Shown: in pieces, positions 30,687 to 52,879 of the stretch
Layout: each line of letters opens with the position of its first letter
How positions within the stretch are numbered: position 1 is the first letter of the stretch
NCBI GenBank assembly: GCA_036874045.1
Contig: CM072336.1
Coordinates: forward strand, 9,762,501 to 9,826,500
Source of the DNA: Cymodocea nodosa
Lineage: Eukaryota > Streptophyta > Magnoliopsida > Alismatales > Cymodoceaceae
Direction of reading: 5' to 3'
DNA length: 64,000 bases
Notes under the pieces: model-generated
Seen by the model: the letters and a program-made list of their open reading frames with translations, nothing else
Told to the model about the DNA's origin: nothing
Databases searched by the model: none
Made by a program: the position numbers and the translations under genes

Positions 30687-31790
30687 ATGGCCGCCACCAC
30701 CACCTTCCACCCGTCATCCCTTGTCTACCACAACCACGGCCACCGCCAGCGGTTCACTCCCAACATCCGCTGCGCCTCCAGAACGTCCCTCACTGCCACC
30801 ACCGAAACCATCTCCGATCCTTCCCCCGTTGCCCACTCCTTAAAGTCTTTCGCCCCTGCCACTGTCGCCAACCTCGGCCCCGGGTTCGACTTCCTTGGCT
30901 GCGCCGTTGACGGACTCGGCGACCATGTTATCGCCTCTGTCGACCCTAGCGTCAGGCCCGGAATGCTGTCCATCTCTTCCGTCACCGGTGCCGATGGGGC
31001 CTCCAAACTCAGCAAGAAGCCGCTCTGGAACTGCGCCGGCATCGCCGGAATCGAGGTCATGAGGATGCTATCTGTTAGATCGGTGGGGGTCTCGCTGGAG
31101 CTGCATAAGGGTCTCCCACTAGGGAGTGGTCTCGGGTCTAGCGCCGCAAGTGCGGCGGCGGCGGCGGTGGCAGTGAACTCGCTTTTCGGGTCTCTGCTTC
31201 CTCCTTCGGATCTTGTTCTTGCGTGTCTCGAGTCGGAGGCGAAGGTCAGCGGGTACCACGCGGATAACGTGGGGCCTGCGATCATGGGTGGGTTCGTTCT
31301 CATTCGGAGCTACAAGCCCTTCGAGATCATTCCTCTCGAGTTCCCTGTGGTGAAAGATTTGTACTTTGTGCTCGTGAGCCCTGAGTATGAAGCACCAACG
31401 AAGAAGATGAGGGCGGCATTACCCACGAATGTGGAGATGAAAGAGCATATCTTCAACTCTAGCCAGGCGGCAGCTCTAGTGGCCTCTGTGCTCATGGGAG
31501 ATGTGAGGATGCTTGGATTGGGGTTATCCTCGGACGTGATTGTGGAGCCGAGAAGGGCACCATTGATACCAGGAATGATGGCGGTGAAGAAGGCGGCACT
31601 GGAGGCTGGGGCTTATGGGTGTGCGATCAGTGGTGCAGGGCCTACTGTTGTCGCCATCACTGATGGGGAGGAAAAGGGTAAGGAGATTGGGAATTACATG
31701 GTGGAGGCTTTCTTTTCAGATGGGAAATTGAAGGCAACTTCAACAGTTAGTCGACTGGATCGTGTTGGAGCTAGGATTGTTGGCAGCTAA
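30687..31790 (+). CDS. HSK: Homoserine kinase, plastid precursor
   Basis: This 367-residue protein is complete and in one exon. It phosphorylates L-homoserine to O-phosphohomoserine with ATP (EC 2.7.1.39), the branch-point substrate for threonine and methionine synthesis in plastids. Residues 1 to about 50 are rich in Ser/Thr/Arg/His with few acids, as in a plastid transit peptide. GHMP-kinase motifs are intact: FAPATVANLGPGFDFLG at 55-71, the ATP loop PLGSGLGSSAASAA at 144-157, the conserved GYHADNVGPAIMGG at 189-202, and YGCAISGAGPTVVAI at 310-324. Length and intron-free structure fit known plant HSK genes. The start chosen is the first ATG of this frame and gives a normal transit peptide. 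The 5' third is much richer in G/C at third positions than the 3' end, a gradient common in monocot genes. The reverse-strand frame at 31303-30725 is its antisense shadow. Confidence 0.97.
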   Translation: MAATTTFHPSSLVYHNHGHRQRFTPNIRCASRTSLTATTETISDPSPVAHSLKSFAPATVANLGPGFDFLGCAVDGLGDHVIASVDPSVRPGMLSISSVTGADGASKLSKKPLWNCAGIAGIEVMRMLSVRSVGVSLELHKGLPLGSGLGSSAASAAAAAVAVNSLFGSLLPPSDLVLACLESEAKVSGYHADNVGPAIMGGFVLIRSYKPFEIIPLEFPVVKDLYFVLVSPEYEAPTKKMRAALPTNVEMKEHIFNSSQAAALVASVLMGDVRMLGLGLSSDVIVEPRRAPLIPGMMAVKKAALEAGAYGCAISGAGPTVVAITDGEEKGKEIGNYMVEAFFSDGKLKATSTVSRLDRVGARIVGS

Positions 31791-46610: not shown

Positions 46611-46887
46611 CTTAGCATAGTAGAAGAACTGAAAAAGCACTTGGAAGGAGATTAAGAGAGAGAGAAAGGCTTATATAATAAGATTAAGAAAACAATCAGA
46701 ATCCATCAATTACAATGTAATTCTCAAAATCCACCGAGATAGTTTGCTAGAATCCACCGTGCTAGACAATAATACTTAGCATGCAACTAGAAGGCAAAAG
46801 TTTTTTCCTTGGACTCGCCATCCACCCCCTTAAAAGGATAAAGATTATTAAAGAAAAGGTAAATAAGGTGGTTGGTAATTAACCACT
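46611..46887 (-). repeat. Probable gypsy LTR, 3' end
   Basis: It lies directly upstream of the primer site in element orientation. It contains GGAGATTAAGAGAGAGAGAA and CTTATATAATAAG near 46670, a possible promoter region. The outer boundary is uncertain because the repeat at 46888 begins here. Confidence 0.5.
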
Positions 46888-47505
46888 CTTAATCATGCAA
46901 GGCCGTATGCTTCACAATTGCTGATGGCGTCCCCTCGTATTCACCATTTAGTAATAGGTCATTATTTGAATTAATGGTCTCCATGACCATGCCTCCTTGC
47001 TCTACATTAGGGCCATCATTTGAATTGGCCTTTAAGACCACGTTTCCTCATTCCACGTTTGAGGTTATGCCATTAACTCGAAGGACAGATATCTTGCATT
47101 GGTAGAATTTGCTTAGTCGTTAATATGTCAAATAATGTTCTAATAGGTTTTTGGACCATTTGTTCATTTCCTTAGCATACCGGTGAGGAGATTGACATGC
47201 CAAAATTGTTCTAGTAGGATTCTAAGTGATTTTACCATTCAAGTAGAACGATGAAAATGTCTAAGTTTGCGTTGTTCATTTTCTCAATATACTGGTGGTA
47301 GGCCTAGTATGTGAAAAACTATTCTAGTAGCATCTAGAATGGATAGTTTGAAAGTTATTGTTCCAATTTTTACGTGGAATGGATATCCCAAGTTTAAATC
47401 ATTGGTTCGCTTGAAGGTTAGGTTCATTTAATGCCCTAAATATACTTCTACAATTGATTTGAAAGAGTGGTCCGATTTTTACAATTTGGGTTAAGCATAA
47501 AATAG
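46888..47505. repeat. 620 bp dispersed repeat, copy 1
   Basis: It aligns in direct orientation with 52205-52823 along its full length, from TCTTAATCATGCAA to GCATAAAATAGATT. The similarity is high, with small differences. Both copies lie in or beside gypsy sequence. It is non-coding and could be part of a gypsy LTR. Confidence 0.8.
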
Positions 47506-49092
47506 ATTTTCGCTTGAAAATTTGTTAGTCTGTTCTAAGGATAGACTTAGCTAATATCTCAACTGTTCCTAGTTCGTTGGTCTAAAGTGTCAGTCTGATT
47601 ATTCATGCCCTAAGTGATCCTAGAATGGATATACAATTTCACATATCGTTTGTCCATTCTTGCATAAAAGTGTTCTCTAAGGATGTAGTTTCATATAGGT
47701 GCAATTTCGTAGGAGTGTAAAGTGCTAGTGGAGGTATTCTATTTTAGGCTTCCTAAAATGGTTTGCCGTAATCTTCCTAGATCCTTCTAAAGCGTTCCTA
47801 GTTGAGATTCTAAGTGAGGAGTTTCCTAAAGAATAAGAACATTACAAGGAATTTTACATAAAGACACATGTAACGCTCAATATTATCTCTTCGTTTTTGC
47901 TTCTTCATTGATGTGTATGTCTTCGCACCAAATGGATGAAATGGATTTTTAGGACTAAACTAAGCAGTGATGGGAGATTAGATTGACTTATGGCTAGATG
48001 AATAGTTGCAAATGGTTATAATTAAACTATAAGGAGTCCTCCTCTCATGTTGTTAAACTTAATACTATTAGGACTCTTCTCGCCGTAGCTACCATTAAAA
48101 GGTTGGAAAATTAAGTAATTAAATTTTAAAAAATGCTTGTCTACGTCGTGATTTGAACAGTCTGTCTTTATTAAATAGTCTCTTGGTTTAATTAAACTGC
48201 CTGTCTTTATCGGTGAATTATTGAAAATTCCCTTTACACGTTCAAATTTTGGCAGAAAAGTTTGTAACGCCGTGCGACAAATTCGTAGAAAAATTTTTCT
48301 TTATTAGTTGATATTTTACATTACATCTTTTAAATCGTCTATTCATAGAACTAAAAGGAAGTTACTTGACAATTTCATAGAAATCATATAGTGTTTTAGC
48401 ACAGACGGTATGAATTAATTTAAAGAAGAAAATAGGCAATAAAAGATAATTGTCGCAAGCATTGACTCTACGCATCAAAAGAGCATGAGCTTCTCGTAGG
48501 AGACGAGTTAAGTAATCTTGTTTTAAAACAAAATGGTGCTAAATTAAATTTGATGTGTAGTTTTTCATGGTCAATATTCACAAAATATAAATGGAGAAGT
48601 CTTCAACAAGCTAGAAAGTCAAATGCGTTCTACATGCGTGCAAGAAGGTTGACATGCTGGGTATGAAATTGTAATACTAATCTATCGATGTTAAAACTCT
48701 CTAAATCAGTAGCTATGTTAGCCATTTAGGTCATACGTACTTGTAGGATCATCAAACTTTTCCCTTAATTTTTATCATATGTTCTTCAACCTCGATTCAA
48801 GAAACACCGTGAAGTTCTTTTGACAAATGCCATCCATATCGAGGATTTCGTACGTGCCGAGGATATATTTGATTGAAGTAGGCAAGTAAACAAGCAAGTT
48901 TATGATTTTAACTTTTTATTCTATTTTCTACTTAATTCAAGTTTGTTTCCAGTAAGGTAAAGCAGGAAATATAAGAGTATTAACCACTCTTTATACATAC
49001 ATGCATACATACATACATATAGATACAGACATACATATATATATTTGATGAGACAAGAATATTGAAGCATGCATGGATAACGGACGTAGAAC
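47506..49092. other. Non-coding spacer with a microsatellite
   Basis: No gene is seen. An ATAC/ACAT-type microsatellite with a TATATA tail lies at 48993-49040. The last 50 bp run into the 3' end of the secreted-peptide gene. Confidence 0.4.
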
Positions 49093-49098
49093 TTTATT
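49093..49098 (-). terminator. Poly(A) signal AATAAA of the peptide gene
   Basis: The minus strand reads CTGAATAAAGTTC, 124 bp after the stop codon. A second possible signal, GATAAATAAG, lies nearer at about 49140. Confidence 0.6.
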
Positions 49099-49221: not shown

Positions 49222-49615
49222 TTAACGTGGGCAGAACCTCGTGCAAACTACGCGGTAGCGGCAACAGTAGCGACGTAGGAAACGTCGGCACAAACGGATG
49301 CACCGCAAGTAGCCTCTGCAGCATCTCCTCCTGATTATTATTTGGCTTTCACCAACGTCGTCTGCATCGACATCATTCGCATCCAAGTCCAACGATGACT
49401 CTGCGCGCGCATGTAAAATAATATATGTACATATACATGTTACTTGATTGCCACTGCATACATTAAAAGTAGTTAATCAACAAGAGTAGAAGAAACATTT
49501 CGCGACCTGTGTTCTCTCCTTCAGCTTCCTCCTCCGCTTTCACCAGCACGTCGGAGGTGACGAGCATGAGGACCAGCAAGAAGACGGTAAACACGAAAAT
49601 GGGCTTAGGAGCCAT
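49222..49615 (-). CDS. Cys/Arg-rich secreted peptide precursor, unknown family
   Basis: Two exons on the minus strand, 49615-49507 and 49400-49222, are separated by a 106 bp AT-rich GT-AG intron (splice phase 1; an earlier acceptor would give a stop). The 95-residue product starts MAPKPIFVFTVFLLVLMLVT, a signal peptide ending near residue 27. Residues 27-56 are acidic (EEEAEGENTE, DANDVDADD), and 60-95 are extremely basic, with 14 Arg and no Lys. The tail has eight Cys at 63, 64, 70, 74, 82, 83, 89 and 93, so CC-x5-C-x3-C occurs twice with a 19-residue period. Signal, acidic pro-segment and basic Cys-rich end are the plan of known secreted antimicrobial precursors such as thionins, but order and spacing match no family I recognise. 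Function is inferred only. TATA box, intron and poly(A) signal are in place, so it looks alive. Cleavage before about residue 57-60 is a guess. Confidence 0.72.
49401..49506 (-). other. Intron of the peptide gene
   Basis: The donor is ACAG|GTCGCG and the acceptor GCGCGCGCAG|AGTCA. The interior is AT-rich, with TTGATTAAC and TTTTAATG as branch-site candidates. Without splicing the frame ends after 15 more codons with no Cys, which argues for splicing. Confidence 0.7.
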
Positions 49616-49705: not shown

Positions 49706-49712
49706 CTTTATA
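49706..49712 (-). promoter_or_regulatory. TATA box of the peptide gene
   Basis: TATAAAG in GGCTATAAAGAGAGAG, 91 bp before the ATG. It implies a start of transcription near 49680 and a leader of about 65 bases. Confidence 0.75.
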
Positions 49713-52203: not shown

Positions 52204-52204
52204 T

Positions 52205-52823
52205 CTTAATCATGCAATATCAGATGCTTCGTCTTTGGTGATGGCGTCCCTTCATATTCACCATTCAGTAATAGGTCATTATTTGAATTAATGGTCTTCA
52301 TGACCATGCCTCCTTGATCTACATTAGGGCCATCATTTGAATTTGTCTTTAAGACCACATTTCCTTGTTCTATGTCAGAGGTTATGCTATTAACTTGAAG
52401 GATAGGTACCTTGCATTATTGGAATTTGCTTAGTTATCCATATGTCAAATAATGCCCTAATAGGTTTTTAGACCAGTTGTTAATTTGCCTAGCATAGTAG
52501 TGAGGAGATTGGAATGCCAAAATTGTTCTAACAAGATTCTAGGTGATTTTACTAATCAAGTACAATGATGAAAATGACTAGGTTTGCTTTGTTCTTTTTC
52601 TCAATATATTGGTAGTAGGCCTAGTATGCCAAAAACTATTCTAGTAGCATCTAGAATGGATAGTTTGAAGTTTCTTGTTCCAATTTTTACATGGAATGGA
52701 TATCCAAAGTTTAAAACATTGGTTCCTTCGAAGATTAGGTTCATTTAATGCCCTAAATATACTTCTACCATTGATTCGAAAGACTGGTCTAATTTTACAT
52801 TTCAAGTTATGCATAAAATAGAT
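52205..52823. repeat. 620 bp dispersed repeat, copy 2
   Basis: Direct partner of 46888-47505. It separates the integrase fragment from the captured reading frame that follows. Confidence 0.8.
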
Positions 52824-52879
52824 TCAAGTAAACGTGGTTGATAAACATATCTTCAATAGGCTTTAAGAAAATCATGACT

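Follow-up and report, generated by a model that had tools for sequence, protein, structure and literature searches.

Conserved prepro regions, fixed cysteines, variable loops and multiple gene copies are features of the conotoxins and of the legume NCR peptides, and in reproductive signalling families too a conserved prepro is joined to variable tails framed by cysteines. In thionin precursors the acidic part comes after the basic part. Thionins themselves are described as basic peptides of plants, their cysteines numbering six or eight (PMC10136942). The closest design to that of the gene considered here appears to be that of the Ib-AMPs of Impatiens balsamina, given in the same paper as arginine-rich, fungus-inhibiting peptides of the form CC-x8-C-x3-C whose precursor has a signal peptide and acidic spacers, with four cysteines per 20-residue peptide and six peptides per precursor (PMC10136942). 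According to a second paper, RCB-1 and Ib-AMP are the only plant peptides that its authors were able to place in its beta-hairpin class (PMC13001179).

The gene lies in a stretch of 64,000 nucleotides of Cymodocea nodosa DNA (the window, meaning the whole of the stretch that was analysed). It is probably a member of an amplified plant family, so far found only in this genome, that encodes predicted secreted defence peptides. The gene structure, the paralogues, the conserved prepro, the variable tail, the charge balance and the cysteine frameworks can be read directly from the DNA. What the family has in common with conotoxins and legume NCR peptides is its mode of evolution, and kinship with them is not claimed. 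With thionins it shares the character of basic, cysteine-rich plant peptides, but here the acidic part precedes the basic tail.

The gene in the window

The gene, like all the features given for it, is on the minus strand and extends from the ATG at 49615 to the stop codon (TAA, 49222..49224), its two exons encoding a product of 95 aa. Exon 1 (49507..49615; 36 codons plus 1 base) specifies a signal-peptide-like start, assessed by eye, and the beginning of an acidic pro-segment. It is followed by a GT-AG intron of 106 bp in phase 1 (49401..49506), with donor ACAG/GTCGCG (first intron base 49506) and acceptor GCGCAG/AGT (last intron base 49401). Exon 2 (49222..49400, stop included) opens with the remainder of the acidic pro-segment (49333..49400), an acidic stretch of LDxDA-D-V type that recurs across the family, and closes with the predicted mature peptide (49225..49332), whose N-terminal cut is a predicted position. 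This tail of 36 residues has 14 Arg, 8 Cys in the arrangement CC-x5-C-x3-C-x7-CC-x5-C-x3-C, a calculated mass of 4720 Da, and a net charge of +14; that of precursor residues 28-59 is −13. A TATA box (TATAAA, 49707..49712) is separated from the ATG by 91 bp, and AATAAA (49093..49098), the likely polyadenylation signal, begins 124 bp past the stop. The first-pass annotation had proposed this two-exon gene with its in-frame intron, a tail with these numbers of Arg and Cys, and the two flanking signals. Its coordinates are exact, the residue numbers agree with the translation, and the positions of both signals are confirmed, each signal being recurrent across the family.

Donor bases +3 to +6 deviate from the plant splice consensus, and similar off-consensus donors are seen repeatedly among family members. 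Splicing may instead use another acceptor in the same frame, with 49362 as the last base of the intron; this alternative would give a product of 82 aa with a shortened acidic segment and would affect nothing else. When codon usage of the three exon-2 frames was compared with that of the homoserine kinase gene of the window, the cysteine frame ranked second of the three and the differences were small. The predicted structure of the tail has a mean pLDDT of 65.8 and is not relied upon. No tRNA was found for the region, and Rfam gave no match at gathering score.

Among 20,063 simulated ORF tails none had at least 8 Cys and none had at least 12 Arg. Real ORF tails of 36 aa in the window number 683, and that of the gene is the sole one to combine 8 Cys with at least 12 Arg (two others have 8 Cys, but 2 and 0 Arg). 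A family of paralogues is, we consider, a stronger test of the reality of the gene than simulation of chance.

Copies, precursors and known families

A motif pattern search of the 374.6-Mb, 28-contig genome found the window copy and two more: one on the same contig, ~880 kb away, inside a duplicated stretch, and the other on contig C5. With the exon-2 protein as query against the same genome, 55 places were found, the window included, and all were fetched and translated. Contig C2 has 19 of them at 8.74-9.81 Mb (that of the window among them, many ~60 kb apart), two at 8.05 Mb, six at 3.40-3.50 Mb, five at 1.46-1.50 Mb (four of these being complete genes) and three at 0.54-0.56 Mb; another 17 are on C18 at 2.26-4.92 Mb, two on C13 and one on C5. 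A matching exon 1 is present at 45 of the 55 places. Splicing in frame, at the homologous intron site and in the homologous phase, is possible in all of these except the C5 copy, in a scan of splice models that admitted only donors with G preceding GT and an exon 2 in the frame of the tail. Stops in relatives, named by the first-pass annotation as a sign against the gene, were looked for among the paralogues: 44 of the 45 copies with exon 1 are open, and the C5 copy is frameshifted. A second in-frame acceptor is available in 15 of the 44 spliced copies. In five members (L033, L034, L043, L045 and L066) reading on past the donor in the frame of exon 1 leads to a stop codon after at most three codons, which makes removal of the intron obligatory there.

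The 44 spliced copies give 25 distinct precursors, every one with at least 8 Cys. Some of the near-identical copies could be duplicates created in assembly, which makes 25 the safer number. (An internal stop flagged for L044 is the tail's own stop codon.) Excluded from the set are the C5 copy and the ten places without exon 1 (L047, L049-L052, L056, L057, L059, L061 and L062). At nine of these ten the exon-1 region is absent or altered relative to an intact sister, and for the tenth, L059, the match to its sister begins no earlier than the intron. Six of the ten have damaged tails (shortened in L049-L052, one Cys lost in L061 and in L062), and these six are likely relics. Eleven copies of one identical precursor (L019-L029) stand at C2 8.97-9.71 Mb, many of them ~60 kb apart. 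When 3-kb loci were compared with that of L019, five of the other ten showed 5-18 differing positions and the remaining five 737-920, the higher numbers probably reflecting indel shifts. The C18 copies lie together to one side of a branch (81/82) in a tree of the 25 precursors, where the four complete copies from 1.46-1.50 Mb group with L055 (100/99).

Between the window and C5 copies there are 2 mismatches in 109 positions of exon 1, 22/99 in the intron, 7/73 in the acidic part and 6/104 in the tail, the bounds of these regions departing by as many as four bases from the final gene model. The six tail differences fall in five codons, each with an altered residue, which is compatible with drift. 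An extra base directly past the acceptor puts the window splice model out of frame in the C5 copy, whose likeness to the window is limited to ~2 kb. Adjoining this frameshifted copy is a partial second copy of the 3′ end of the gene (L003 / L014, C5 1.496 Mb). Most of positions 31132-64000 of the window recurs at C2:8.913-8.953 Mb with ~96-99% identity and with indels, a repetition that arose either by recent segmental duplication or in the assembly. The part of the window that recurs at C2 8.91 Mb takes in some of an intronless homoserine kinase gene (30687-31787, plus strand). The window gene is flanked by direct repeats of ~622 bp (46887-47508 and 52204-52824), ~86% alike as judged via the duplicated stretch, which could favour unequal exchange.

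Each of the 25 distinct precursors begins like a signal peptide, continues with an acidic pro-segment of net charge −6 to −14 and ends in a basic tail of net charge +7 to +17 that holds 8-11 Cys. The first-pass annotation had noted the hydrophobic start and the acidic middle for the window gene. The consensus of the N-terminus is close to MAPKPIFVFTxFLLxLxLVTSDVLVKAEE and that of the pro-segment close to E-LDLDANDVGEDKVGED. Seventeen tails have the cysteine framework CC-x5/6-C-x3-C-x7-13-CC-x5/6-C-x3/4-C, five have CC-x5-C-x5-C-x5/8-C-x4-C-x-C-x3-C, and the third framework comprises the forms with 10-11 Cys (3 of 25). TATAAA or TATATAA is present 87-112 bp 5′ of the ATG in all 25, and AATAAA or AATAAG within 150 bp past the stop in 24. 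The pro-segment ends in Asp or Asn in 23 of the 25 (21 counted by script, L033 and L066 read by eye), in Ser in the window-type copy and in Ile in L039.

With the Ib-AMPs as described in PMC10136942 the family shares arginine richness, a CC...C-x3-C motif, a signal peptide and an acidic pro-region. However, the window-type member has CC-x5-C-x3-C twice within one 8-Cys tail; the first cysteine spacing in the 25 distinct precursors is x3, x5 or x6 and never the x8 of Ib-AMP; one acidic segment is followed by one tail in all 25; and sister genes carry other cysteine frameworks. In a shuffle test (25 tails, best of three Ib-AMPs, uncorrected), 54 of 500 shuffles were as good as the window-type tail, and 193 of 500 when the cysteines were held fixed; for the L043 tail the numbers were 0 and 3. 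The likeness of the window-type tail to the Ib-AMPs appears to be at the level of composition. Because spacing and precursor layout differ, membership is not claimed.

A homologue search with the window protein alone gave four candidates, not one of which had an E-value of 10 or lower. A profile from 16 of the 25 distinct precursors picked out one of 2,949 candidates, P0121, at E 6e-9; this record is unspliced, has an exon 1 of the C18 type and is probably from the same or a very close species. Among ~5.8 billion proteins none could be recognised as a relative from another species, in a search that depends on shared words and on predicted proteins. With homoserine kinase as a control for coverage, plants were well represented: among the 120 of 7,861 matches listed, identity was 64-78% (78% being the highest), those named were from flowering plants, and the best named match by rank was from Wolffia australiana, at 74%. 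The database being thin near this species, the absence of homologues is weak evidence.

No Pfam cut-off was reached by the 19 of 25 distinct members scored and NCBIfam gave no match, which is in line with the description of the family, in the first-pass annotation, as an unrecognised one. Kinship to thionins, which it had brought in for comparison, is not supported: Pfam gave no thionin match, either for the window protein (E up to 10) or for the 16 members of alignment A4 (E up to 1). For the glycine-rich protein family PF07172 the scores of the 19 distinct members ran from 12.9 to 27.4 bits, below the cut-off of 30; it weakly matched the N-terminal region in 16 of 16 A4 members (best E 5.3e-6), but the family precursors are without a glycine-rich body. 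Sar8.2 (PF03058) was weakly matched by L065 only (1 of 16; E 0.0077, 17.1 bits against 31.7), and Pfam conotoxin by three of the 16 (lowest E 0.021; 11.8-16.2 bits against 25.1). Plant defensin, hevein-like and snakin are not among the five Pfam families matched by the 16 members. Comparison with solved structures gave Myosin-4 matches only, at chance level, for the precursor, and none for the tail or the family profile. The peptide words of the family were not found in the literature searched. Taken as a whole the first-pass reading is partly supported; it overlooked the large amplified family, in which the tails are far more variable than the rest.

Divergence of the tails

Over seven pairs, hand-picked from 300, dN/dS was 0.41 for the prepro and 1.00 for the tail. 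Differences among the four complete genes clustered at 1.46-1.50 Mb amount to 0-2% outside the tail (400 bp upstream, exon 1, the intron, the pro-part and 250 bp of 3′UTR) and to 7-27% within it: 7% for L063/L065, 16% for L058/L063, 22% for L058/L064, 24% for L064/L065 and 27% for L063/L064. The rise in divergence coincides with the tail, and the changes are confined to loops, with every cysteine kept. From ~250 bp past the stop, L064 differs by 23-24% from the other three, which are within 1% of each other. The tail of L065 looks mosaic, being L063-like in front and L059-like behind.

Change at non-synonymous sites of the tail is in excess of that at silent sites of the near flanks in all six pairs of the cluster (p 2e-7 to 9e-21), though the pairs share genes and hence are not independent. 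An earlier Fisher test omitted the diverged stretch behind L064, and the later count gives both versions; with that stretch counted as silent, the three pairs that involve L064 weaken to p 3e-5 to 3e-7. Synonymous tail sites are also raised over the near flanks, in five of the six pairs (p 0.014 to 1.6e-5), and within the tails no pair has a significant excess of non-synonymous over synonymous change (p 0.15-0.6), the counts for L063/L064 varying with the alignment (24/78 and 3/21 against 25/80 and 5/22). In its aligned DNA this cluster displays a sharply bounded, fast-changing segment. Since silent tail sites are raised as well, selection cannot be separated from local conversion or mutation, and positive selection on the tails is not proven by these counts. 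For the subfamily of the window gene itself rapid tail change is not shown, one precursor occurring there in eleven identical copies.

It is conceivable, if short of probable, that one conserved prepro, three cysteine frameworks and mosaic tails diverging more than ten times faster together constitute a conotoxin-like plant arsenal, in a family seen in no other species. Focused diversification would be bounded by the mature-peptide segment within one exon, and would proceed via local gene conversion or mutation with selection. (The rate sets the tail-coding segment of a gene against its own prepro and intron and against its near flanks, for non-synonymous and mostly also for synonymous sites.) The raised synonymous tail sites in five of the six cluster pairs add weight to this reading.

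Possible functions

For secreted defence peptides, the N-terminus would direct the precursor into the secretory pathway, where the acidic pro-segment may neutralise the basic tail while the precursor folds and is transported. The window tail would form disulfides, up to four, its two CC-x5-C-x3-C modules being linked by a seven-residue joiner. A protease would cut at the end of the pro-segment and, because Asp or Asn is at that position in nearly all members, an Asp/Asn-specific vacuolar processing enzyme is proposed; this is a guess, and the window copy, with its Ser, may be an exception. The released arginine-rich peptide might then bind anionic microbial surfaces, and gene duplication with fast loop change between fixed cysteines might maintain a diverse set of peptides.

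A conserved prepro with variable, cysteine-framed tails would also fit peptides secreted as signals, such as ligands in pollen, stigma or development, that coevolve with their receptors and so diversify, as LURE or SCR do. In our judgement, however, a product made in bulk accounts better than a ligand for both the strongly basic tail with its matching acidic pro-segment and the occurrence of one precursor in eleven copies, and a signalling role is unlikely. Quite improbable is a family of anti-herbivore or protease-inhibitory peptides: disulfide-rich, arginine-rich, fast-changing tails are compatible with it, but the Pfam matches include no inhibitor family and there is no meaningful match to a solved structure. 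While 8 Cys and 14 Arg in a 36-residue tail might call to mind a metal-binding or DNA-packaging protein (metallothionein- or protamine-like), this is very improbable given the signal-like N-terminus and charge-matched acidic pro-segment of every distinct precursor and the lack of any such Pfam match. That the gene is a chance or decayed reading frame in repetitive DNA is scarcely credible, for though it is surrounded by repeats, exon 1 and intact tails have been lost elsewhere, C5 is frameshifted and decay may explain single copies, nearly all copies with exon 1 are open with the same intron and at least 8 Cys, the window and C5 exons are more alike than the intron, and no simulated tail was comparable.

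Predicted secreted defence peptides of this kind would add a multicopy family of cationic, cysteine-rich peptides whose cysteine frameworks match no Pfam family. ORF-based annotation would tend to miss such families, because prepro and tail are on two short exons. Recent duplicates that are near-identical except in their tails would permit a direct test, in a plant, of peptide diversification within one exon, and could tell selection from local conversion or mutation. If true, the conotoxin-like arsenal would represent a focused diversification process in a family unseen in other species.
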